The notes below the pieces were generated by a model. That model made no database searches. It was not told where the DNA came from and worked only from the letters and a program-made list of their open reading frames with translations. The translations under genes were made by a program, and so were the position numbers. This document shows, piece by piece, positions 1-21,337 of a stretch of DNA of 21,337 nt. The DNA comes from a virus: the IMG/VR virus record IMGVR_UViG_3300020457_000121, positions 1 through 21,337 of that record, one strand, 5' to 3'. The first letter of the stretch is position 1; every line of letters starts with the position of its first letter.

Positions 1-3000
1 ACATATTTTATAGTTAGAATTGATAAAAATACAATTAAATTATCCGAAACTGTATTTAAATCTAAAAAATTAGTACCAAACTGTATTTCACTCACATCAA
101 CTGGATCTGGTCATACCATTGCTCTTATCAACCCACCTTTATTCTTAACTCGTGGATATAAGGTTGGTTTTGCTGTATCTGACACTTCTCTTACACAAGT
201 TGTATCAGGAAAGAAAACAAAAATATTTGATTTTGATTTATTCAGAGACATTAACTTTACAAACCCATATTTTAATAATGAAGAAGATGGTGGTTTCCAA
301 GTTATAGGTGTCGGAACAGTTGGAGTTACTACAACAGCAAGAGTGGATTTATCTTTGACAGAAAATACTCCAGATGATCTATTCTATAAGTTAACACCTG
401 TAAATTTAGACATCGATGCTCCATTTAAGAGAAATCCTATTGTAGATACAGATGTTATTAACTATTCAAGTTTAAAAATATCAGATAGTGGATATAATGG
501 AAATTATGCAGTTACTGGAATTGGAAGCACTACTTTTAAAGTTATATTGTTATCTCAACCAGAAAAAGATGGATATACTAAAGATGAAGCTACAACATTA
601 TCATATTCGACATCTTCATTAACTGCTGTTGGTGCAATTGATAATATTAATATTACTTCATTAGGAAAAAATTATTTAAACATTCCTGTTGTTACTTCGA
701 TTGGATCAACACTTGGAGTTGGTGGTGTAGTTAGATTAAATAGTAGTGTTACGGGTAGATTAAGAAGATATCAAATCAAAAATATTGGATTTGATTATTC
801 AGCTGATAGAACAATTCAACCATCTGTTCAATTACCACAAATTTTAAGATTAGATCGTCTATCTAAAATATCAAATATTGGAATTAGTTCTGGTGGTAAG
901 AATTATATTCAACCACCAAATATTGTTATTATTGATCGCGTTACTGGTTCAATTAAAAATGAAGTTGTAACAGATGTTGATATAAAGGGAACATCCGTAT
1001 CTGAGGTTAGAATTTTAACAAACACAAACTCTTTATATGGCACAAATCCAAGAATCATTGCTACAAATAATAATAATGGAATTAAGGTTAAAAATCTATC
1101 ATATACAAGTGGAACTAATCTTGTAACTCTTACTCTTGAAGGATCTTACGATTCTACAACATATCCATTTGAGTTGGGTAAAAAGATTTTTGTTGAAAAC
1201 ATAGGTATTGGATCAACAGGTAGTGGTTATAATTCATCTGATTATGATTATGAATCATTCGTAATTACTGGTGTAAATACAAATCCAGGCGGAGGGAATG
1301 CAACCGTATCATATAATCTAGATCGATCTGTCACAAGCCCAGGCATCTTTAGTGGCCCTTCGTCATCTGGACAAGCGATACCATTTGAAAATATAGCTCA
1401 ATTTGATATTGATGTTGAAACAAATCAATTTAGTATAGGAGAAACAGTAAGCACAGGTGATAAAGTTGGAACTGTTGTTGCATGGAATGAAAACAACAAA
1501 TACTTAAAAGTGTTATCTAATGACACATTTAACTCTGGTGACGAAATTAATGGAGCATCTTCTAAATCAATTGCAATAATTGAACAAACTACAAAATTTA
1601 ATTCTGTATTTAATATAGATTCTGATTCAGAGTTTAGAAGTGGATTTAGAAAAGAAACTGGTAAATTAAACACAGAATTACAAAAATTAGCTGATAATGA
1701 TTATTATCAGACATTCTCTTATTCATTAGAGAGTCCAATTTCATATGATACGTGGAAAGATCCAGTTAATAGTCTCGGACATGTTGTTGGATTTAGAAAT
1801 TTTGCAGATGTAAGTATCGTATCGACAGCATCAACTGATGACAAGAATCGAAGTAATGCATCTGTTGGAGTATCATCTTCTCCTGTTGTAGTTGTTGCTG
1901 ATTTGATAAGTGAAAATGAGTCAATGCATATGCATTATGATTTTGATCTTGTTAGTGAAAATTCTAAAAATATATCTGGTTTATTTGCATCTGATGAGAT
2001 TAATTTTAACAATCGAATCTTAACTGATTACATTGAATCAAGAACAAACAGAGCAATTACGATTGATAGTGTAAGTTCTCAGTTTAATGACTTACCTCGT
2101 GCAACTGCGTTCTCTGATGTATTTGATTTTGATATCAATGAAGTTGATGGAGTTAAGTTTTATGTCATGGTATTTGACACAAGATTTTCTGGGGAAAAGG
2201 AGATAATTCAAGTTAACTTACTTCATGATGGATCTCTTGGATACATGATGCAATTTGGTCGTGTTGAAACAGCAATTGATCTTGGTGAATTTGACTTTAA
2301 TATTTCAGGAACCACAGGAAATTTAAGATTTGTTCCAGCTAAATCTAAGAATAATAACTATGCACTAAGATTATTTGCAGTAGAAACATTCAAAGATACG
2401 CAGAGTGGTATCAGCACATTATCTCTTGGAACTGGATATGACATCATATCTACATCCTCTGGTATAGGATCCACAGATCCATCACCTGTTCAGGTCGTTG
2501 GTTTTGGAACCACTGCGATTACAACCAGTAAATTATTCATACAAACACAAGAGTTGGGTGGTGATCAAAGAACTCAGTTAAATGAATTAGTTGTATTAAA
2601 TGATAGTGAAGAGGTGTATCTTTTAGATTATGCTCAAATGATTAATGAGAATATATCTCCAACCAATTCGCCAAGTGTAGGTCTTGGAACATTTGGTGCA
2701 GATGTAAGATCAGGCATTACCAGTGTTTACTTTACACCTGAGACTGGTATCGGTGTCACCATGAGAGTGCATCAAGTTGCTATCGGAGGAACTGCAACTG
2801 GAATCGGAAGCACAACAATATCTCTCACTGAGATACTAACCACAACAACAAATATTGCAGCAACAGGAACTCCACAACCAACTCGTATTAGTGGAATTAA
2901 TTCTGGTACATATACTGCATTTGATGCTTTAATTGAAATTCATAATACAACTGATGATCAATATGCAGTCACTCAAGTAACCGCAATTCATGACACCATA

Positions 3001-6000
3001 ACTCCACAGTTTGTAGAATTTGGTTATATGGATAACTTCAACGGAACTGGTATTGGAACTGTTGGTGTTGGATATTCATCTGCAACTGGTGGCGATCTTG
3101 AACTTCGTTTAACTCCTCCAGCAAACAAGGCAATCACAACTAAAGTGTTCCAGTATAACTTTAATGAAACTGGAACTGGTGGTGTTGGTCTTGTTACATT
3201 TACAGATTCTAGATTAAAATCTGCCGAAGGGTCATACACTGGAACTGAGAATGATGTTAAATTCTCCTTTAATATTAAACATGCTGGTGATTCATTATTC
3301 CATAAGACATTTGATTCATCTGATGCTGCGGTGGTTGATGTAACAAATAATACATTGGTTATCAATAATCATTTCTTCCAAACTGGTGAAGAGTTGACAT
3401 ACACACCAACTGGTGCTGGAACAACAATGAGTGTTGGAATTGCAGCAACTTCAATCAGTGGAATCGGCGTTACCACTAAATTACCATCTTCAGTCTTTGC
3501 AGTTAAGATTGCAGAAAATAAATTAAAACTTGCTAGAACTGCAGCTGAGGCACTTCAAAATGTCCCTAAAGTTTTAGATATCACAGCTGTTGGTGTTGGA
3601 ACTACACATTCACTTACCGCAAAAAATCTTAACTCGAAGGCGTTGGTTACTCTTGATAACAACATTCAAAGTCCAGTTATACAATCACCAATTAACACAA
3701 AACTATCGTTTGATGCTTTAACAACAACTGACTTTATAACGTTAACTGGTATTACTTCATTCTTCTCTGGTGATGTTATTAAGGTAAATGATGAGTTCAT
3801 GAAGATTGATACGGTGGGCATCGGATCCACAAATCGACTTCTTGTGAAGAGAGGTCAGTTGAATTCTGCACTTGCAGATCATGATGCTGGTGACACAGTT
3901 ACTAAGTTCTTAGGTAACTATCAGATTGTTAGAGATACGATTAACTTTACAGATGCACCTAAAGGTGAAAAAGGCCCATCAGGGTTAACAACCACATCAA
4001 CATTTGTGGGTAGAGTATTTACTCACACTGGCACTCCTGATGGAACTCAAGAAACTTACTCAAACAATTTTGTGTTTGATACTTTTGAGAATCAATTCAC
4101 GGGAATTGCAACCAACTTTATTCTCAAATCAAGTGGTCAAAACGTCACTGGATTTGCAACGAATACAGGCGTTTTACTTCTAAATGAAATTTTCCAAAAT
4201 CCAAACGATGATTATAATATTGTTGAAACTGCTGGTATTACATCTGTAAGTTTCACAGGTGTTGGAGTTACAAATAATTATGATGTAAACGTATCATCAG
4301 TTCCTAGAGGTGGTGTTATTGTATCAGTTGGTGAGAGTGCATCCTTCGGATATCAACCATTAGTTGCAGCTGGAGGAACTGCAATTGTATCTGCTGCTGG
4401 AACAATTGAATCCGTGTCTATTGGTAATAGTGGATCTGGATATCGTGTTGGATTACAAACTAATATTCTTGTCAGAGCGGTTGGAAGTTCTGGTATTGTC
4501 ACAATCGGTAAAGCAAATGTAAGTGCTGGTTTAGTTACATCTGTTACTATTACTAGTGGTGGATCAGGATTTAGTTCTGCAACTCCACCAACTCTTGAAT
4601 TTGAAAAACCACTCAACTATGAAAATATAAGATTGATTGGTAGTACTACAGGCATAGGTGCTTCAGTATCTGTTCGTGTTGGTGCTGCAACAAGCATGAT
4701 TAGTTTTAATATTACAAACTTTGGATATAACTACAAAATTGGTGATGTTTTAACTGTTGAAAGAGGTGGTCAAGCTGGTATTCCTACAGATGCATCTGCT
4801 GGATCATCATTCAAATTATTTAACCTAACTGTTCTTGATACATTCAATGATAGTTTCTCTGGATTCACATTTGGTGAATTAGAAAAATTAAACACATTTG
4901 AAGATCTATTTGATGGAAATAGAAAGAATTTCCCAATAACAAAAACAATTGGCGCAGTTGAAACTCCAATTACTTTAAGAGCTGCGAAAGGATCTCCAAT
5001 TAAAGTTGAAGATAATACATTAGTATTCCTAAATGATATTCTTCAAGTTCCTAGAGAAAGTTATGTCTTTAATGGTGGATCTCAAATTACATTCTCTGAA
5101 CCACCAAAAGCAGATGATAAATTAAGAATTTACTACTATCGTGGATCTGATAATGATGTAATTGATGTGGATATTTTAGAAACAGTTAAAATTGGTGATG
5201 ATCTTACAATTAACAAATATCCTGATATTGGTTTGGATGATGTTTTCCAACAAGAACCAAGAACAGTTACAGGTATTACTACATCAGATACTGTAACCAC
5301 AAACACCTACATTGATGCTGGTATTACAACAGATAGAACTGTTCAAAGACCAGTGACTTGGAAAAAACAAATATCAGATGTTATTGTAAATAACATTGGA
5401 ATTGGTAAAGATAGATCTGAGTTAGAAGCTGGTATCCGTCCAACTGCTTACATAATCAATAACGTGTCTGCTGGATCATCTGAAATATTTACAGACACTG
5501 CTGGCCCTCTATTTGATGAAACTGATGATATTGTAGAAGTTAGACAAAGTGTATTGATTCTTGATAGAACAACTAAGACAGGGGTTGCAGCAACTGCAAT
5601 AGTCTCTGCAACTGGTGGAATATCCACAGTTTCCATCTCAAATGGTGGATCTGGATACACTGTTGCACCACATGTTTCAATTGGAATTACAGCTGGAATC
5701 GGAACTATTCATGCTGGAATCGGAACCACCACAACAAATGCAACAGCTGTTGCGACTGTATCTGGTGTTGGAACAATATCTGCAATTACAATTATTAACG
5801 CTGGTGCTGGATACACAAATACAAATCCACCTTTAGTGTTAGTTGAAGCGGAGTCTGTCACTCAGGACAAACTTTCAAGTGTCAAATATGATGGTGATTT
5901 TGGATCTATTGTAGGAATTGGAACATCAACTGTTGCTGGAATAGGAACTGCAATGCAGTTTGATTTATTCATACCAAAAGATTCAGTTCTTCGTGATACA

Positions 6001-6420
6001 TCAGTGGTCGCAGCTGCAACCACGGTGAGTGGTATTGCATCTGGATATTACTTTACTGCATTTGAAACAAATGTAGGTAATGGCATAACTGCATACGAAA
6101 ATGCAATCGGAACTTCTCCATCTGGAATCGGAACTTCCTTCCTAGATAATATATACAAAGTGCATAGCGCTAAAACTATACAAGGGCCTGCTCTTGGAAT
6201 TGGTGCAACCGCTTTAAGAAGAGTGACTGTAAGTGTAAGTTCGACTGAAGGTATTGGTATTGGAAGTGGATTCTTTGGTAAATTCTCTTGGGGTCGTTTA
6301 CACGACTTTGTTAAGGACGGAACTAGTTCGTTCACTGCAATAAATGATGACGGTGTTACAGGTATTATCACAGGGCCTGTGATCATCAGAACTAGGGATT
6401 TAAAAGAATCCTATAACTAA
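1..6420 (+). CDS. Giant virion structural protein upstream of gp8, 5'-incomplete (gp7 position)
   Basis: The frame is open from base 1 to the TAA at 6418-6420, so at least 2139 residues are present and the start lies outside the window; the GTG at 343 is internal. Numbering from base 1, the visible parts are: a YFIVRIDKNTIKL module (about 2-45); GGKNY-type motifs (about 212-235 and 289-313); a GE/SGA-type module (about 475-527); a conserved-looking core starting DNDYYQTFSYSL (about 566); a second copy of the first module around AVKIAENKLKLART (about 1124-1208); an 'ExI' module (about 1237-1304); a short collagen-like GEKGPSG (1322-1328); two LN(D/E)I(L/F)Q hairpin-like modules (about 1393 and 1674); and further GGSGY motifs near 1468-1590 and 1872-1950. 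GIGT/GIGST tetrapeptides recur throughout. In T4 the gene before gene 8 is gene 7 (wedge initiator), so by position this may be its counterpart, but I see no diagnostic gp7 motif. A baseplate or tail structural role is inferred from content and context. Confidence 0.85.
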   Translation, partial: TYFIVRIDKNTIKLSETVFKSKKLVPNCISLTSTGSGHTIALINPPLFLTRGYKVGFAVSDTSLTQVVSGKKTKIFDFDLFRDINFTNPYFNNEEDGGFQVIGVGTVGVTTTARVDLSLTENTPDDLFYKLTPVNLDIDAPFKRNPIVDTDVINYSSLKISDSGYNGNYAVTGIGSTTFKVILLSQPEKDGYTKDEATTLSYSTSSLTAVGAIDNINITSLGKNYLNIPVVTSIGSTLGVGGVVRLNSSVTGRLRRYQIKNIGFDYSADRTIQPSVQLPQILRLDRLSKISNIGISSGGKNYIQPPNIVIIDRVTGSIKNEVVTDVDIKGTSVSEVRILTNTNSLYGTNPRIIATNNNNGIKVKNLSYTSGTNLVTLTLEGSYDSTTYPFELGKKIFVENIGIGSTGSGYNSSDYDYESFVITGVNTNPGGGNATVSYNLDRSVTSPGIFSGPSSSGQAIPFENIAQFDIDVETNQFSIGETVSTGDKVGTVVAWNENNKYLKVLSNDTFNSGDEINGASSKSIAIIEQTTKFNSVFNIDSDSEFRSGFRKETGKLNTELQKLADNDYYQTFSYSLESPISYDTWKDPVNSLGHVVGFRNFADVSIVSTASTDDKNRSNASVGVSSSPVVVVADLISENESMHMHYDFDLVSENSKNISGLFASDEINFNNRILTDYIESRTNRAITIDSVSSQFNDLPRATAFSDVFDFDINEVDGVKFYVMVFDTRFSGEKEIIQVNLLHDGSLGYMMQFGRVETAIDLGEFDFNISGTTGNLRFVPAKSKNNNYALRLFAVETFKDTQSGISTLSLGTGYDIISTSSGIGSTDPSPVQVVGFGTTAITTSKLFIQTQELGGDQRTQLNELVVLNDSEEVYLLDYAQMINENISPTNSPSVGLGTFGADVRSGITSVYFTPETGIGVTMRVHQVAIGGTATGIGSTTISLTEILTTTTNIAATGTPQPTRISGINSGTYTAFDALIEIHNTTDDQYAVTQVTAIHDTITPQFVEFGYMDNFNGTGIGTVGVGYSSATGGDLELRLTPPANKAITTKVFQYNFNETGTGGVGLVTFTDSRLKSAEGSYTGTENDVKFSFNIKHAGDSLFHKTFDSSDAAVVDVTNNTLVINNHFFQTGEELTYTPTGAGTTMSVGIAATSISGIGVTTKLPSSVFAVKIAENKLKLARTAAEALQNVPKVLDITAVGVGTTHSLTAKNLNSKALVTLDNNIQSPVIQSPINTKLSFDALTTTDFITLTGITSFFSGDVIKVNDEFMKIDTVGIGSTNRLLVKRGQLNSALADHDAGDTVTKFLGNYQIVRDTINFTDAPKGEKGPSGLTTTSTFVGRVFTHTGTPDGTQETYSNNFVFDTFENQFTGIATNFILKSSGQNVTGFATNTGVLLLNEIFQNPNDDYNIVETAGITSVSFTGVGVTNNYDVNVSSVPRGGVIVSVGESASFGYQPLVAAGGTAIVSAAGTIESVSIGNSGSGYRVGLQTNILVRAVGSSGIVTIGKANVSAGLVTSVTITSGGSGFSSATPPTLEFEKPLNYENIRLIGSTTGIGASVSVRVGAATSMISFNITNFGYNYKIGDVLTVERGGQAGIPTDASAGSSFKLFNLTVLDTFNDSFSGFTFGELEKLNTFEDLFDGNRKNFPITKTIGAVETPITLRAAKGSPIKVEDNTLVFLNDILQVPRESYVFNGGSQITFSEPPKADDKLRIYYYRGSDNDVIDVDILETVKIGDDLTINKYPDIGLDDVFQQEPRTVTGITTSDTVTTNTYIDAGITTDRTVQRPVTWKKQISDVIVNNIGIGKDRSELEAGIRPTAYIINNVSAGSSEIFTDTAGPLFDETDDIVEVRQSVLILDRTTKTGVAATAIVSATGGISTVSISNGGSGYTVAPHVSIGITAGIGTIHAGIGTTTTNATAVATVSGVGTISAITIINAGAGYTNTNPPLVLVEAESVTQDKLSSVKYDGDFGSIVGIGTSTVAGIGTAMQFDLFIPKDSVLRDTSVVAAATTVSGIASGYYFTAFETNVGNGITAYENAIGTSPSGIGTSFLDNIYKVHSAKTIQGPALGIGATALRRVTVSVSSTEGIGIGSGFFGKFSWGRLHDFVKDGTSSFTAINDDGVTGIITGPVIIRTRDLKESYN

Positions 6421-6450: not shown

Positions 6451-8010
6451 ATGTCAGCTATTATAACTGATCAACTGCGTATATTAAACTCGGAAAATTT
6501 TGTAGCGGGTATAGCATCAACTACGAACAGTTATTATGCGTGGATTGGTCTCCCCAACCCAGAGGATTTTCAGTCTGATTGGAGTGAAAATCCACCAGCT
6601 CCAAAAGATTCCTTTAGTGAAGAGAATGATTATTGGGATACGATGATCGCTCTGAAGAAGTTAAATTCAGATGATATTTCAAGAGTTGTTAGAAAGATAA
6701 CTTGGTCGTCAGGAACGACATATGAGATGTATCGGGATGATTATTCACGATCTAATTTGTCACCACAAACTAGTTCAACTAATTTGTATGACGCAAATTA
6801 TTATGTAATGAATTCAAATTTCCGTGTTTATATTTGCCTACAAAATGGAACTAATCCAGAAAACACATCTGGAAGACCATCTCTTGATGAACCACTATTC
6901 ACAGATCTAGAACCAAGATCTGCTGGTGCTTCTGGAGATGGATATATTTGGAAATATCTTTTTACGATTGATCCAAATAGCATTATCAAGTTTGATTCTA
7001 CAAGTTTTATACCTTTACCTCAAGATTGGTCAACTAACAATGATGTTGCTGCTGTAAGAAATAACGCAGCAACTAGTGGTCAGTTAAAGATCGTAACGAT
7101 TACAAATCGTGGAGTTGGTTACGGCACTGCTGCGACTTATAACAACGTCCCCATTAAAGGTGATGGAAGTGGTGGTAAATGTTCTGTTGTTGTAAACGCT
7201 GCTGGTAAAATTGATTCAGTTGAAGTTACTAATGGTGGTTCTAATTATACTTTTGGTTCAGTTGGTTTGAGTGATGTTGGATTAACAAATCCATCAGGTT
7301 CAACAGATGCTGGATTTAACGTAATTGTTCCTCCTCAAGATGGTCATGGTGCTGATGTGTATCGAGAACTTGGTGCAAATCGTGTTCTAATTTATTCTCG
7401 TTTAGAAAACGACACTTCTAATCCAGACTTTATTACGGGAAATCAATTCTCTCGTGTTGGTCTTTGTCGTGATCCTCTTGCTTTTGGATCAGAAAATAAG
7501 TTAACACTGCAGAAAGCGAGTGCTGTTTATGCATTGAAACTCACTGGTGCTGGATCAACAACTACAACATTTACTGCTGACTCTGAGGTAACTCAAGAAG
7601 TTGGTATTGGATCAACTGCTGTTGGTCGTGTCATTAATTATGATGCAACCACTGGAGTTCTTAAATATTGGCAAGACCGTAGACTTGCAATATCAACTGA
7701 TGGAACTGCACCCACATATGGATTTGAATTGTTTAGATTTAGTGCTGATCCTGCAACTGGAGCAGGGACAACCATATTTGGTGGAACAAGCAATCTAAAT
7801 ATAGATACTAATTTCGGAACTTCTTTAGCGCCTGGTCTCTCTACCTCAATAAATAGTAGGACATTTAATTTAGGAATGAGTTTTGTAAAAGGTGTTGCAA
7901 ACCCCGAAGTTGAAAAATATAGTGGTGACATTATATACGTTGATAATAGAGCTGCAGTAACTCGTAGTTCTCAACAGAAAGAAGACATCAAGATCGTACT
8001 GGAATTTTAA
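6451..8010 (+). CDS. gp8: Baseplate wedge subunit gp8, enlarged
   Basis: The 519-residue product matches T4 gp8 (334 residues, recalled) at both ends. The N-terminal part has ITDQLRIL (T4: VTSKFRTE), a central DGYIWKYLFTI (T4: DGYVWEYLFEI) near residue 165, and the C-terminus reads SGDIIYVDNRAAVTRSSQQ then EDIKIVLEF (T4: SGEMIYMENRPPI, then EEINILFTF). gp8 is a wedge component of the contractile-tail baseplate. The extra length lies mostly between these anchors: two GGxGY-type motifs (about residues 210-278) and a GIGST/GxV module near 380-410. The ATG follows a candidate late promoter; no strong Shine-Dalgarno sequence is visible. The next gene starts 6 bp after the stop, suggesting cotranscription. 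Confidence 0.92.
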   Translation: MSAIITDQLRILNSENFVAGIASTTNSYYAWIGLPNPEDFQSDWSENPPAPKDSFSEENDYWDTMIALKKLNSDDISRVVRKITWSSGTTYEMYRDDYSRSNLSPQTSSTNLYDANYYVMNSNFRVYICLQNGTNPENTSGRPSLDEPLFTDLEPRSAGASGDGYIWKYLFTIDPNSIIKFDSTSFIPLPQDWSTNNDVAAVRNNAATSGQLKIVTITNRGVGYGTAATYNNVPIKGDGSGGKCSVVVNAAGKIDSVEVTNGGSNYTFGSVGLSDVGLTNPSGSTDAGFNVIVPPQDGHGADVYRELGANRVLIYSRLENDTSNPDFITGNQFSRVGLCRDPLAFGSENKLTLQKASAVYALKLTGAGSTTTTFTADSEVTQEVGIGSTAVGRVINYDATTGVLKYWQDRRLAISTDGTAPTYGFELFRFSADPATGAGTTIFGGTSNLNIDTNFGTSLAPGLSTSINSRTFNLGMSFVKGVANPEVEKYSGDIIYVDNRAAVTRSSQQKEDIKIVLEF

Positions 8011-16379: not shown

Positions 16380-17219
16380 ATGGCTCAACCAAGTTCAAGA
16401 CAAGGTTTAATAGATTACGCAAAAAGACAGCTTGGTTTTCCTGTCTTAGAAATTAACGTTGCAGATGAACAATTTTCTGATCTGTTAGATGATGCTGTTC
16501 AAGTGTATCAAGAGAGACATTATGATGGCATCACAAGAATGTATTTGAAATATAAAATTAAACAAATAGATATCGATAGAGGTCAAGCAAGAGGAGGAGA
16601 TACATCAGCTGGAATTACTACAACCACTACAACATCAACAGTTGGATTATCAACCACTTTCACTCTTGAAGAAAATCAAAACTACATACAGATGCCTCCA
16701 TCTGTAATCGGAGTTAATCAAATATTTAAAATTAGATCTGATACGGTTTATGATGGATTATTTAATATTCGATATCAACTATTTTTAAACGATTTATATC
16801 AGTTTGGATCAGTTGATCTTCTTCAATATTCAATGGTTCAAACTTATCTTGAGGATATAACGTTCTTGTTAAATCCTGATATGAGATATCGATTTAATAT
16901 TCGTCAAGATCGTTTATATATCGATGCTGATTTTGGCGTTTTAAACGTGGATGATCATTTTGTAATTGATTGTTTCAGAATTTTAGATCCAGATGATTTT
17001 ACAAGAGTGTATAATGATCCATTCTTGAAGAGATATTTTACTGCATTATGTAAGAAACAGTGGGGTCAAAATTTAATTAAATTCCAAGGGGTTCAATTGC
17101 CTGGTGGTATTCAACTTAATGGTCGTCAAATATATGATGATGGTGTAAAAGAGTTAGATGAAATCAGAGCTAAGATGTCTAGTGATTATGAAATGCCTCC
17201 ATTAGATATGATTGGATAA
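16380..17219 (+). CDS. gp13: Neck protein gp13 (head completion)
   Basis: The 279-residue protein begins with a stretch I recognise from gp13 of T4-like phages: RQGLIDYAKRQLGFPVLEIN, then VADEQFSDLLDDAVQVYQE and RHYDGITRMYL (residues 7-56), with conserved LG-P-V-V-D and HYDG elements. T4 gp13 is about 309 residues. gp13 and gp14 close the portal after packaging and form the neck to which the tail docks. Residues about 77-90 carry a Thr/Ser-rich insert (GITTTTTTSTVG). The rest has hydrophobic and aromatic strands plus an acidic segment (DCFRILDPDDFTRVYNDPF) and a C-terminal PGGIQLNGRQIYDDGVKELD. The start is set by the AGGTGA site; the stop overlaps the gp14 ATG by one base (TAATG), indicating coupled translation. 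Confidence 0.9.
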   Translation: MAQPSSRQGLIDYAKRQLGFPVLEINVADEQFSDLLDDAVQVYQERHYDGITRMYLKYKIKQIDIDRGQARGGDTSAGITTTTTTSTVGLSTTFTLEENQNYIQMPPSVIGVNQIFKIRSDTVYDGLFNIRYQLFLNDLYQFGSVDLLQYSMVQTYLEDITFLLNPDMRYRFNIRQDRLYIDADFGVLNVDDHFVIDCFRILDPDDFTRVYNDPFLKRYFTALCKKQWGQNLIKFQGVQLPGGIQLNGRQIYDDGVKELDEIRAKMSSDYEMPPLDMIG

Positions 17220-18607
17220 TGTTAAATCCGTTTTTCCTACAGGGTTCTCAAGGAGAACAAGGTTTAGTACAAGACTTAATTAATGAACAATTAAGAATGT
17301 ACGGACAGGAATGTCATTACATTCCTAGAAAACTATTGACCTCCAGAACAATTATGAGAGAGGTGACTGAATCAAGATTTGATCAGGCATTTCCTCTTGA
17401 GGCATATCTCATGAACGTTGATGGGTATGCTGGACAGGGAGATATATTGACAAAATTTGGTATTCGTGTCACTAGTGAGGCAACATTTGTAATCTCAAGA
17501 GAAAGATTTGAAGAGTCGGTTGCACCTTTTTTGGAACAACAAGAAGATGATTATGAAGTATCAAATCGACCAAGAGAAGGTGATTTGATATTTGCACCTC
17601 TAGGTAAAAAATTATTTGAAATTAAATATGTTGAATTTGAAAAACCACTTTATCAGTTAAGAAAAAATTACACGTATCAACTTACATGCGAACTCTTTGA
17701 ATACGAAGATGAAGTTATTGATACAAATGTTGAAGCCATTGATAAGGTCGTTCAAACAGATGGTTACTCTGCAAGATTAATTCTCTCTGGTATTGGTAGC
17801 ACTGCAACTGCAATCACAACATTAGCTTTTGGTGCGGTTCAAAAAATATTCTTGCAGAATGATGGATTTGGATATGCTGCTGCACCCACAATTGGAATCA
17901 CCACATCAGTCGGCAATGATGCAACTGCTGTTGCAATCATGACAGAGAGATCTGGTATCGCAACTGCTAAATCTATCGATAGAATTCTTTTAATCAATCC
18001 TGGCAGTGGATATGTCGGAATACCCACTGTAACCGTGCCAGGCACGGGTATAGCGACTGCTGGCGTGTCTACACAGGGTTCAATAGGTATTGTTACGATA
18101 ACCAGTGGCGGATCAGGTTACACCACAACTCCAAACGTTGCGATTGGAACTGCGCCTGAGGGTGGAGTAAATGCAACTGCGGAAGCTGTAATGGTTGGAG
18201 GAACAATCAGATCTATCAGAATCAGTAATGCTGGTACTGGATATACTGCTGCACCAACAATTTCAATTGGTGTTGCATCAACCGTTGCAGATGGTAATTA
18301 CATCTTTAATGAAACAGTTCAGGTGTCTTCAAGTTCTGCTGAAACTGCAAGAGTTAAAGTATGGGATGCAAGTTCCAGAACTCTTGATGTTAGTATGCTT
18401 ACTGCGATGCAATTCCAAGTTGGTGAAAAGATCAAAGGACTTGAATCTGGTGCAGAATATGTGATTGAATCTGTAAGTTATGATCAACCAAATAGTTATC
18501 CAAATGATGAGTTTCAAGCAAATCAATATAACGATAACGCAAACTTTGAATCCGAGGCGGATGCAATTCTGGACTTCTCTGAAGGCAATCCTTTCGGAAC
18601 ATTCTAA
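17219..18607 (+). CDS. gp14: Neck protein gp14 with a large beta-repeat insertion
   Basis: The 462-residue product matches T4 gp14 (256 residues, recalled) over its first 190 residues: MLNPF, EQGLVQDLINEQLRMYGQEC (T4: EQNLVNDLVAESIQIRGVEC), YIPRKL, FPLEAYLMNVDGYAGQGD (T4: FAAYLNSFEGYEGQNS), LTKFGIRV, REGDLIF and LFEIKYVE. gp14 works with gp13 in head completion and neck assembly. Between this core and the acidic C-terminus is an insertion of more than 200 residues. It holds four GGxGY-type motifs (about 206-354) and then a GE/SGA module (about 361-420) with FQVGEKIKGLESGAEYVI. T4 gp14 has no such region, so the inserted part would probably project from the neck. The ATG overlaps the gp13 stop. 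Confidence 0.9.
   Translation: MLNPFFLQGSQGEQGLVQDLINEQLRMYGQECHYIPRKLLTSRTIMREVTESRFDQAFPLEAYLMNVDGYAGQGDILTKFGIRVTSEATFVISRERFEESVAPFLEQQEDDYEVSNRPREGDLIFAPLGKKLFEIKYVEFEKPLYQLRKNYTYQLTCELFEYEDEVIDTNVEAIDKVVQTDGYSARLILSGIGSTATAITTLAFGAVQKIFLQNDGFGYAAAPTIGITTSVGNDATAVAIMTERSGIATAKSIDRILLINPGSGYVGIPTVTVPGTGIATAGVSTQGSIGIVTITSGGSGYTTTPNVAIGTAPEGGVNATAEAVMVGGTIRSIRISNAGTGYTAAPTISIGVASTVADGNYIFNETVQVSSSSAETARVKVWDASSRTLDVSMLTAMQFQVGEKIKGLESGAEYVIESVSYDQPNSYPNDEFQANQYNDNANFESEADAILDFSEGNPFGTF
17834..18279 (+). repeat. Four degenerate GGxGY/xP coding repeats inside gp14
   Basis: Four units of roughly 20-25 residues each have the pattern I-x-x-I-x-[IV]-x-N/S-x-G-x-G-Y-x-x-x-P-x-[IV]-x-[IV]: NDGFGYAAAPTIGI, NPGSGYVGIPTVTV, SGGSGYTTTPNVAI and NAGTGYTAAPTISI. 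They are protein-level repeats with diverged DNA. The same motif recurs in three other genes of the window. Confidence 0.85.
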
Positions 18608-18626: not shown

Positions 18627-19670
18627 ATGTTAGGTACTTATTTCTATCATGAAATATTAAGAAAGACGGTTATCGGTTTCGGTACTCTCTTTAATAATAT
18701 TAACATTCGACACAAGGATGCGAGTGGGACGAATTTTAGTGTCATGAAAGTTCCTTTGGCTTATGGGCCAATGCAAAAGTTTTTGGCAAGAATTCAACAA
18801 CAACCAGATCTAGAAAGAGAGATTGCAATCACTCTTCCAAGAATTTCTTTTGAGATGCAGGGATTGCAATATGATCCAAGTCGTAAAACTGGAATCGCAC
18901 AAACTTTTCTTGCAAAAAATGGAACAAATGCAAGAAAGGTTTATATGCCTGTTCCATATAATGTTGGATTTGAACTCAGCATCATGTCCAAATTGAGTGA
19001 TGATGCATTACAGATATTAGAACAAATCATTCCTTATTTTCAACCATCGTTTAATATTACAGTAAATTTAATTGATTCAATCGGCGAGAAGAAAGATATT
19101 CCAATTGTTTTAGAGAGCATAAATTATAGTGATCAGTATGAGGGTGGATTTGATACTCGTAGAATCATAGTTTACACTTTATCATTTACTGCAAAAACTT
19201 ACCTCTTTGGCCCTGTCGCAGACAATCCAGAAGGTCTTATCAAAAAAGTTGATGTTGATTACTATGCAAGTGAAAACTTCAAGACTGCAAAACGTAATAT
19301 TAGATACAGTGCAACACCAGCTGCGAAGCAAAATTATGATGGAGACGAGGCAACCGTTGTCAATGGGGCAATTTCTGAGAAGGTCACAACCTTCAAGGTC
19401 AGCAGTACAACTGATTTAGCTGCAAATAATCGAATCATTATTGATTCTGAGATTATGTTCATCAGAAGTATCAGTGGACAAAATATCACGGTGTACAGAT
19501 CCTATGATAATACTATTGCTGCGAAACATGAACATAATGCGAAGATTGGTGTTCTCAGCACTGCTGATGATGCACAAATCGAATTTGGTGATGATTTTGG
19601 ATTCAATGAAACTTCATCATTCTTTAGTGATGGAAAGGAGTTTAGTCCATCTCAAGGTATAGACATTTAG
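18627..19670 (+). CDS. gp15: Proximal tail sheath stabiliser gp15 with C-terminal extension
   Basis: The 347-residue protein matches T4 gp15 (272 residues, recalled) at several points: the N-terminal GTYFYHEILRKTVIGFGTLF then NNINI (T4: GYFYNSSFRRYATLMGDLFSNIQI), ITLPRISF (T4: TILPRINL), ILEQIIPYFQPSFNITVN (T4: IVEQILPYFQPHFNTTMY), a DTRRIIVYTLSFTAKTYLF segment and PEGLIKK. gp15 caps the tail tube and sheath and makes the tail joinable to the head. The T4-like part ends near residue 225. The remaining residues include an 'ExI' module (about 254-312; KVSSTTDLAANNRIIIDSEI, HEHNAKIG) absent from T4 gp15 and shared with two giant proteins of this window, then an acidic tail. The upstream gap has only a weak late promoter candidate. 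Confidence 0.9.
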   Translation: MLGTYFYHEILRKTVIGFGTLFNNINIRHKDASGTNFSVMKVPLAYGPMQKFLARIQQQPDLEREIAITLPRISFEMQGLQYDPSRKTGIAQTFLAKNGTNARKVYMPVPYNVGFELSIMSKLSDDALQILEQIIPYFQPSFNITVNLIDSIGEKKDIPIVLESINYSDQYEGGFDTRRIIVYTLSFTAKTYLFGPVADNPEGLIKKVDVDYYASENFKTAKRNIRYSATPAAKQNYDGDEATVVNGAISEKVTTFKVSSTTDLAANNRIIIDSEIMFIRSISGQNITVYRSYDNTIAAKHEHNAKIGVLSTADDAQIEFGDDFGFNETSSFFSDGKEFSPSQGIDI

Positions 19671-19677: not shown

Positions 19678-20094
19678 ATGAAAAATTTTGATTCAATCGA
19701 GGAAGCACTTAACGTTGATACCGAGGTTCTTGGAACTGTTGATGATGAACCTCGAAAGAATCAACTTCAGAAAACAGGTGAAAACGATTCTGAAAAAGAC
19801 TATTCATATAGTCGTGCTCAGTTATACTCGTTAGTTGAAAAGGGACAAGAAGCAGTAAATGGTATATTAGAATTAGCACAAGAGTCTGATTCTGCACGAG
19901 CATATGAGGTTGCTGCAACAACAATTAAAGCAGTCGCAGATACTACAGATAAACTTATTGATCTTCAACAAAAAATGAAAGATCTTGAACAAGATCCAAA
20001 CAAAGGCCCTACAAATGTAACCAATGCATTATTCGTTGGTTCTACTGCAGAGTTATCAAAATTAATTAAGAAACAAAAAGAAGATGATAAATGA
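19678..20094 (+). CDS. gp16: Terminase small subunit gp16
   Basis: The 138-residue protein has the features of T4-type small terminase (T4 gp16, 164 residues). There is an acidic N-terminus, a helical middle with ARAYEVAATTIKAVADTTDK and LIDLQQKMKDLEQ (T4: [20 protein letters not shown] then KLHKDMKDI), and the C-terminal NVTNALFVGSTAELSKLIK (T4: NATVFMGSPTELMDEI). It forms a ring that regulates the large terminase gp17 during packaging initiation. In T4 the next gene is 17; here a fibre-like gene starts in the last codons (ATGA overlap, 20091-20094), so gene 17 is displaced or lies beyond the window. A clear Shine-Dalgarno sequence precedes the start. Confidence 0.92.
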   Translation: MKNFDSIEEALNVDTEVLGTVDDEPRKNQLQKTGENDSEKDYSYSRAQLYSLVEKGQEAVNGILELAQESDSARAYEVAATTIKAVADTTDKLIDLQQKMKDLEQDPNKGPTNVTNALFVGSTAELSKLIKKQKEDDK

Positions 20095-21337
20095 AATCAC
20101 CAGAACTCACAGAATTTTTTAGTCTTCTCGGAAAGGCAAAAAAAGAAAAAGAAGAGGAGTTTGATAACTTACTCAAAGAAGCAGACATCAATCTTGATGC
20201 CTTAACTTCGACTGTCTTCAGTGGAATTAAAGAGGCAAAAGTAAACGAAAAGAAACAAAAGAAAAAAGAAGAAAAATTAATCGAACAACTAGATTCAATA
20301 ATAGATGTAATTGAAAATCCAAAAGAAGTTAAAGATATTACAGAACCAGCCGTAACCGTTGGAGTGCCTGAAAATTTTGACGTATCAAAATTAGAGGAGG
20401 AAGATCCCCTAATTGTCCAAGATTGGAATAACGGTGATGACATTAAATTTACCGAAGTTGATGCAGTAGATATAATCAAACCAGAACCAATTAAAACACC
20501 AGAAATAAGTGACACTGTTGCAAATGCAATCAAGTTTATTGAAGAGACAAATATTAAAGAGGAGATTGAAAATTCAGATGAAAAAAGTATTGATGATCTC
20601 AAGGGAGAAATCAAACAAGTAAGAGATATATTATATAAAGTTCTTGCACATGGGCCAGGATCTGGTGAAGTTAATCTTTTAAAACTTGATGATGTTGATG
20701 AAGATAGTGCAAAGGTAGATGGTAAGTTTTTAAAGTATGATGACTCAAGTGGTAAATTTATTGGTGCAGATGCAAGTGGCGCCATAGCTGGCATTAGCAC
20801 AACAGGAACATCAGTATTCAATGAAATTAATGCGTCTGGTGTTACAACTGCCGCACAGTTCTCAGGATATAGTCACTTAATAGCGCCCCATGCATCAACG
20901 ATAACTATCACAGTTAAGGTTGCAACTAAGATAGACGGTGAACACAGATATTATGGTCAAGGTAGTAGTTTAGGATATAACTTAAATGATGTTCAATCTC
21001 CATTCTTAACACTCACGCCTGGTAGAACATATCGTTTCGATCAAAGTGATAGTTCCAACGGTGGTCATCCACTTCGTTTTTATTATGATGCTGCGAAAGC
21101 TACTTCATATACGACTAATATAACAACGAATGGCACCGCTGGTAGTTCAGGTGCATACACTGAAATTGCAGTCACTGATACAACACCAACAGTATTGCAC
21201 TACCAATGTACAAATCATGGTTACATGGGCAATGCCGTTCAGGTAAATTCCAATGTTATCGATAGTCCTTCAGGTGGAACTGTAAGAGGTAGTTTTACTG
21301 CAACTGGAGGTATTTCTGGCACAACCATCACAGGATC
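20091..21337 (+). CDS. Fibre-like virion protein with cupredoxin-like domain, 3'-incomplete
   Basis: The frame opens at the ATG overlapping the gp16 stop (ATGA) and stays open to the window edge, giving at least 415 residues. Residues 1-70 are highly charged and helical (AKKEKEEEFDNLLKEAD, then KKQKKKEE), a pattern I recall from tail-fibre-like proteins of marine T4-like phages. Residues about 115-185 are acidic. Then come a helix (LKGEIKQVRDILYKVL), a short Gly-rich linker and VNLLKLDDVDEDSAKVDGKF, a typical fibre adaptor motif. GISTTGTSVFNEINASGVTT (about 227-246) looks like a fibre-shaft repeat and reappears in GGISGTTITG at the right edge. Residues about 267-386 form a cupredoxin-like domain with His326, Cys373, His376 and Met379. 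The place between gp16 and the expected gp17 is unusual relative to T4. Fibre or decoration function is inferred. Confidence 0.82.
   Translation, partial: MKSPELTEFFSLLGKAKKEKEEEFDNLLKEADINLDALTSTVFSGIKEAKVNEKKQKKKEEKLIEQLDSIIDVIENPKEVKDITEPAVTVGVPENFDVSKLEEEDPLIVQDWNNGDDIKFTEVDAVDIIKPEPIKTPEISDTVANAIKFIEETNIKEEIENSDEKSIDDLKGEIKQVRDILYKVLAHGPGSGEVNLLKLDDVDEDSAKVDGKFLKYDDSSGKFIGADASGAIAGISTTGTSVFNEINASGVTTAAQFSGYSHLIAPHASTITITVKVATKIDGEHRYYGQGSSLGYNLNDVQSPFLTLTPGRTYRFDQSDSSNGGHPLRFYYDAAKATSYTTNITTNGTAGSSGAYTEIAVTDTTPTVLHYQCTNHGYMGNAVQVNSNVIDSPSGGTVRGSFTATGGISGTTITG
20889..21248 (+). other. Cupredoxin-like domain with apparent type-1 copper ligands
   Basis: Residues about 267-386 of the last gene contain a strand-rich segment with PGRTYRFDQSDSSNGGHPLR (His326 at 21066-21068) and, 47 residues later, HYQCTNHGYMG: Cys373 (21207), His376 (21216) and Met379 (21225). 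The order His...Cys-x2-His-x2-Met is that of type-1 copper proteins such as plastocyanin, though the His-Met spacing is shorter than plastocyanin's C-x2-H-x4-M and closer to the CuA loop of cytochrome oxidase subunit II. Similar domains occur, as I recall, in other marine phage fibre proteins. Metal binding is inferred only. Confidence 0.65.

Follow-up and report, generated by a model that had tools for sequence, protein, structure and literature searches.

The stretch of DNA analyzed here, called the window below, is the 21,337 nucleotides (positions 1 to 21,337) of the viral record IMGVR_UViG_3300020457_000121 in IMG/VR. Near its end lies a tail fiber gene that encodes a predicted cupredoxin-like domain with four putative copper ligands (Table 1). 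The gene follows gp16, because a gp16-like small terminase gene adjoins and overlaps its start. In Synechococcus phage Bellamy and Prochlorococcus phage P-TIM68, tail fiber genes likewise stand directly after the small terminase gene, and the large terminase gene lies further on, by two genes in Bellamy and by one gene in P-TIM68. The profile match and this syntenic place both assign the window fiber to phrog_30742, in agreement with the preliminary description, which had called the protein a virion-type protein. Baseplate, neck, sheath, and further structural families account for most matches of the other window ORFs that were scanned. Judged by synteny and similarity, the virus is a T4-like marine cyanophage, nearest to Bellamyvirus and Haifavirus of Kyanoviridae. 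Sullivan et al. (2010), in passages of PMC3037559, name the interval between gp16 and gp17 as one hot spot of genes enriched in Synechococcus phages.

Table 1. Features at the right end of the window and residues of the predicted copper site
Feature	Position	Strand	Evidence or remark
Tail sheath stabilizer, upstream neighbor	18627..19670	+	phrog_227, E 1.1e-100
Terminase small subunit (gp16-like)	19678..20094	+	Overlaps fiber start; phrog_445, E 2.2e-52; PF11053, 34.1 bits (cutoff 25)
Tail fiber gene	20091..21335	+	415 codons, ATG at 20091, truncated by contig end; phrog_30742 'tail fiber protein', E 7.7e-102
Fiber N-terminal part, charged	20091..20780	+	Sequence
Cupredoxin-like domain, residues about 270-386	20898..21248	+	AlphaFold2 pLDDT 94.1, pTM 0.85, nine strands; Foldseek and VIA-align matches
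His326, first predicted copper ligand (N-terminal His)	21066..21068	+	H in 61/61 representatives; pairs with the ligand His of the PF00127 set (hhalign)
Cys373, predicted thiolate ligand, end of penultimate strand	21207..21209	+	C in 58/61 (1 S, 2 gap)
His376, second predicted His ligand	21216..21218	+	H in 58/61 (1 D, 2 gap)
Met379, predicted axial ligand	21225..21227	+	M in 59/61 (2 gap)

Relatives of the window fiber are 952 (IMG/VR locus L001), 850 (Bellamy), and 961 (P-TIM68) amino acids long. The window fiber is 72% identical to that of L001 across residues 1-415 and 81% identical to that of L006 across residues 1-388. A model of the full-length L001 fiber (952 aa) reached a pLDDT of 34.9 and a pTM of 0.20 and supports no claim; it gives only a hint that the N-terminal part of the fiber could be helical. 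By eye, we also noticed GGSGYTxxPxVxIG-like repeats in several structural proteins of the window (1-6420, 6451-8010, and 17219-18607), as well as a resemblance between the C terminus of the L001 fiber (xHDGT...EFGxI...LRLRVTP) and a stretch of the baseplate wedge protein of the window (1-6420), which may possibly have a domain in common.

The domain is predicted to have a cupredoxin fold

The preliminary description had assigned positions 20889-21248 to a plastocyanin-like site. The region does form one domain, with somewhat narrower folded limits (Table 1), in an AlphaFold2 model built on an alignment of 31 domains. At E ≤ 0.001, Foldseek matched this model to 10 PDB entries, eight of rusticyanin (best 1e30, E 1.6e-4) and two of the multicopper oxidase McoA. 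The next 40 rows shown were mostly laccases, nitrite reductase, bilirubin oxidase, amicyanin, and pseudoazurin, the exceptions being an aspartic peptidase (SO1698; three rows) and factor Va (one row). Among the best 50 rows, TM-scores to PDB cupredoxins were moderate, from 0.40 to 0.55. The best VIA-align match was 2dv6_A (Z 9.1; 2.5 Å over 99 residues, chain residues 24-133; 14% identity); according to the tool's own note, models that lack a clear match often reach a Z of 7 to 8. The VIA-align matches to laccases span the first laccase domain, which is not known to hold type-1 copper, and are therefore evidence for the fold only. The model and the matches from both programs bear out the cupredoxin fold proposed for this protein.

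In the model, C116 (domain numbering) ends the strand 111-116, H119 and M122 lie in the loop before the strand 124-128, and H69, the first His, precedes the strand 71-74. This predicted layout, in which C116, H119, and M122 flank the ends of the last two strands, is that of a type-1 copper site. Among the BFVD matches of the model are three 'Beta-sandwich proteins' from Pithovirus/Marseillevirus LCPAC/LCMAC (A0A481Z7Q7, A0A481Z6J5, and A0A481YY19), of which two have a length of only 133 and 124 aa.

The putative metal-site residues are retained in most of the family

His326, Cys373, His376, and Met379 stand where they had been placed, with GGHPLRF running from residue 324 and YQCTNHGYMG from residue 371. 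Among the 415 fiber residues, Cys373 is the sole Cys, and Met379 is the sole Met apart from the start. A six-frame translation of the window (42,670 codons) contains the pattern C-x2-H-x2-M a single time, and the pattern arises in 14 of 200,000 shuffles of the window protein; thus, the motif is beyond chance, and a chance origin was rejected. The loop had also been considered short, with a perhaps unusual geometry. This is not supported, since the nitrite reductases 6hbe (CSIHPYM) and 9cck (CTLHPWM) have the same spacing. Amicyanin shares it, and multicopper oxidases commonly have HP following the type-1 His.

To follow the site through the family, we took the best 80 of 590 relatives from an IMG/VR scan with the window domain and added three further scans (55 loci, the best 80 of 591, and 25 loci). 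Over the domain, the closest among the best 80 of 590 relatives is L001, at 97%. An iterated HMM search of the gathered loci gave 322 domain matches (260 loci, 259 unique). All four ligands are found in 242 of the 254 sufficiently long copies; four copies read H-S-D-M, and eight keep the first His alone. The full ligand set is present in 58 of 61 representatives at <70% identity and in 23 of 24 at <50%, and by relative entropy in the 61 representatives, the four ligand columns rank first to fourth of 100. The x2 and x2 spacing is kept in 244 of 246 copies, a count that takes in the four S/D copies. Codons at the ligands vary between CAT and CAC for His and between TGT and TGC for Cys; it is therefore the amino acids that are kept, and we rejected recent sequence identity as the cause of the conservation.

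A search pattern that lacks the Cys motif gave the same result. In a scan of prokaryote genomes, YRFDQSD[SAG] matched 15 contigs of 14 assemblies, and all four ligands are present in every one of the 15; some of these contigs, above all those from Prochlorococcus single-cell assemblies, may be phage DNA. Likewise, 159 of the 164 unique copies that contain FDQSD have the complete set. The preliminary description had made its case depend on constancy of these residues among homologues, and such constancy is seen both in the representatives and in the loci found by the Cys-motif-free pattern. We conclude that the ligand set of the predicted metal site is selectively retained.

Some copies keep the fold and lack the site

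Profiles rich in Cys, His, and Met favor matches that bear these residues, so that unmasked counts overstate conservation. For this reason, the four ligand columns were masked and the profile was rerun on the gathered loci. The masked profile found 285 unique matches, 258 with the motif and 27 without, which formed 41 and 16 clusters, respectively, at 60%. Five of the 16 motif-less clusters (L010, L260, and three L259 pieces) were set aside by eye as cut or split, leaving 11. Hence, 41 of the 52 complete clusters are intact and 11 are ligand-free, and detection bias as the whole cause of the conservation was rejected. Two L259 pieces seem to be the halves of a further ligand-free copy.

The ligand-free copies were read from the cluster representatives, not from all 27 motif-less members. 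All 11 complete representatives lack both the Cys and the second His, and five keep the first His. The joint absence of Cys and second His is as expected of one joint metal site. S-x2-D takes the place of C-x2-H, with the Met kept, in L074 and L254 (also in L070, L073, and L076), and these copies possibly hold a different metal or a redesigned site. Since several lineages lack the site but still have the fold, the scaffold must be useful without copper. The earlier argument that retention of all four ligands speaks against a structural relic is upheld by the ranks of the ligand columns in so far as copies with the site are concerned; site-less relatives do exist, however, and the fold alone can persist.

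The persistence of ligand-free copies in phage proteins, together with the two S-x2-D lineages represented by L074 and L254, favors an alternative in which the domain is an ordinary β-sandwich of the fiber, with ligands kept for packing or for a metal other than copper, such as zinc, and with no copper function. We consider this alternative unlikely, if the most credible of those weighed here: it does not agree well with ligands that are the most conserved of 100 columns, with the paired absence of Cys and second His in the 11 ligand-free representatives, or with the intact sets of all 15 prokaryote-assembly loci.

Profiles link the phage domain to known copper proteins

Single-sequence searches of the PDB and searches with a profile of window-type domains (A1) gave only chance-level matches, among them pseudoazurin at E 0.88 with A1. 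A second profile (A3) was built from 27 diverse domains picked by hand from the 61 representatives, with the three ligand-free ones (L145, L074, and the first copy in L138) excluded. The four ligands are the only invariant columns of the A3 alignment; as A3 was chosen without ligand-free members, this shows only that every other column varies and does not mean that the ligands are fixed throughout the family. Among the best 60 of 87 PDB matches, A3 found copper nitrite reductases first (6hbe and 9cck; E 9.3e-6 and 5.2e-5), then plastocyanins from 2.7e-4, pseudoazurin (9.1e-4), amicyanin (3.9e-3), and rusticyanin (4.9e-3), and the first antibody chain, taken as noise, came at E 0.03. The score against 6hbe sums two stretches that are singly weak (4.1 and 0.16). 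When PDB chains were aligned singly, the first His coincided with its counterpart in 1kdi and was shifted by two residues in 1pla.

We also compared the profiles by hhalign with a PF00127 set made of 17 of 18 PF00127 places from 10 of 13 genomes, which includes three HPFYIKT-type members that resemble the phage family. The probability was 85.7 for A1 and 97.9 for A3. All four ligands (His, Cys, His, and Met) were aligned with the equivalent residues of the set, and a gap of two residues precedes the Met. Against Pfam, the window domain and protein had no copper-family match, PF00127 (Copper-bind) included, and scans with the window protein gave noise. At E ≤ 0.1, PF00127 matches six of the 27 diverse relatives (best 5.4e-5). 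PF25489, a domain like that of the plant protein At5g54830, also matches six of the 27 A3 members at this threshold (best 0.0017) and may be a distant relative of the phage domain; it scores 17.9 bits against the connector protein of phage S-SM1 (cutoff 27). A PF25489 search of the window's record gave zero matches, but this carries no weight, since the controls were equally silent.

The domain recurs in fibers and baseplate connectors

Among 50,697 phage records, tblastn with four different members of the family matched 26, 76, 339, and 353. The matched records are mostly of Synechococcus and Prochlorococcus phages, with a few of Pelagibacter, Methylophilales, and other marine phages, and the annotations among the matches listed include tail fiber, hypothetical protein, virion structural protein, and baseplate wedge tail fiber connector. 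We examined ten whole phage records and read the ligands in the eight that had domain matches. These eight hold 20 places, 14 with the motif and six without; the six rank among the weaker-scoring of the 20.

Connectors of the T4 gp9/10 type end in an intact H-C-H-M domain in S-SM1 (L306:2391-3614) and Syn9 (L307:2518-3738), and their N-terminal domain matches T4_gp9_10_N (PF07880) with 39.1 and 42.0 bits, respectively (cutoff 25). A potential copper site may therefore sit at the baseplate edge of these well-studied cyanophages. Virion proteomes have been reported for S-SM1, Syn9, and S-PM2 (in passages of PMC3037559) and for S-CREM2. The S-PM2 and S-CREM2 records had no domain match at E ≤ 0.001. 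Passages of PMC9910659 report tail and baseplate mutations in the evolution of S-PM2d; as S-PM2 has no domain match, these mutations do not bear on the cupredoxin-like domain.

Proteins of the HPFYIKT type, which resemble the phage family, also occur in cells. In Bacteroidetes, the end part of a large protein, encoded on a 1 Mb contig, passes the Pfam Copper-bind cutoff. A Prochlorococcus assembly (L274:1498-1902, minus strand) contains a 134-aa ORF with an apparent signal peptide and the sequence SHPFYIKT...CSPHAPFGM, which passes the PF00127 cutoff and possibly encodes an uncharacterized secreted cupredoxin of the host.

Possible role of the domain in the virion

Our computations establish the fold and ligand set of the domain, show that this set is selectively kept, and place the domain repeatedly in annotated fibers and baseplate-fiber connectors. 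Sequence and model together lead us to predict that the domain of the window fiber quite probably binds copper. As for its role, the explanation that we favor, and hold to be probable on the whole, is a cupredoxin module with one copper per chain that serves as a stabilized surface domain of the fiber or baseplate. One copper ion would be held in each chain by His326, Cys373, and His376, with Met379 as the axial ligand. Because the bacterial cytoplasm has almost no free copper, the virion would acquire the metal during or after lysis. Once bound, it would lock a small β-sandwich that projects from the fiber or the baseplate edge. Ig-like domains are thought to act as surface-contact modules in other phages, and the metal-locked sandwich might, more tentatively, play a similar part. 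This scaffold role could exist without metal, as copies that lack Cys and His suggest. Because related domains occur in both fibers and baseplate parts, marine phage particles that bear them may carry copper.

A complete type-1 ligand set belongs, among known proteins, to the electron-transfer class, and the domain occurs also in baseplate-fiber connectors where, judging from T4, conformational triggers act. Both points would fit a virion site that, by electron transfer or by sensing the redox state at the host surface, triggers a change of the fiber or baseplate. We think such a role improbable: neither a redox partner nor a second cofactor nor a virion electron-transfer system was found, and to our knowledge none is known. 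That host copper-uptake receptors recognize the fiber copper, by analogy with the hypothesis for phage-fiber iron, seems very improbable in spite of the T4 gp37 iron precedent (passages of PMC11705849) and the many marine phage records matched by the family, because a type-1 copper ion is in most cases buried and firmly bound, no evidence for a receptor was found, and related domains occur in cellular proteins as well.

In a bolder picture, each particle of marine T4-like phages would carry several loaded type-1 centers, in fibers and connectors, and during infection the metal would serve as a host-recognition element or as a switch that depends on redox state or copper; this we regard as doubtful. 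We know of no metalloprotein function of this class in virions.

Should the domain bind copper, a large number of abundant marine viruses would be copper-carrying particles, which bears on virion stability, adsorption, and marine trace-metal chemistry. The 'tail fiber,' 'connector,' and 'hypothetical' proteins of several hundred phage records, many of them from near-identical isolates, would gain a testable biochemical property, with the site-less copies as natural controls and a contrast set. Neither the cupredoxin fold nor its ligand set is new, and at least one phage tail protein can be recognized with Pfam; what seems new is a candidate blue-copper module as a recurring part of virion proteins. 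Our literature search was not exhaustive, with most subscription papers and all preprints outside it, and found no cupredoxin domain described in a phage tail; within the same scope, the sole match for cupredoxin with cyanophage was the Borgs paper, and passages of PMC9004378 hold nothing on the domain.

Comparison with known systems

By structure, the window domain is most like the cupredoxin domain of the nitrite reductase of Hyphomicrobium denitrificans (2dv6), its best VIA-align match; by profile, it is closest to the C-terminal stretches of the nitrite reductases 6hbe and 9cck, whose motif spacing, noted above, it shares. In all three reductases, the domain is part of an enzyme, whereas in the window it is part of a phage fiber. 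The fold and the four-ligand set are also those of amicyanin, pseudoazurin, plastocyanin, and rusticyanin. These are free electron carriers; unlike them, the window domain is one segment of a large protein. In plastocyanin, Asn follows the first His and two additional residues precede the Met (HN and CxPHxxAGM), whereas the window domain has Pro after the His.

Among phages, the plastocyanin PetE, an auxiliary metabolic gene product, is likewise a blue copper protein encoded in cyanophage genomes (passages of PMC3037559). However, petE is a separate, host-type photosynthesis gene, whereas the cupredoxin-like domain of the window is part of a structural protein; since the domain belongs to a structural ORF, we rejected a pick-up of phage petE as the explanation. 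Another phage tail protein, the tail spike of P-SSM2 (YP_214529.1; 1036 residues given), contains the domain family in two copies. The whole protein scores 23.4 bits for Copper-bind against a cutoff of 21.2, and no single stretch of it passes. It differs from the window fiber in subfamily (GHPF type), gene, and position.

A metal in a phage fiber, as proposed here, has precedents in the HxH iron of T4 gp37 and in alterophage R22Y, where it is held or predicted; passages of PMC11705849 discuss both the iron in the gp37 HxH sites and the Trojan Horse idea. The gp37-type site is an octahedral HxH iron site in a trimer, whereas the window fiber presents the ligand set of a type-1 copper site within one chain.
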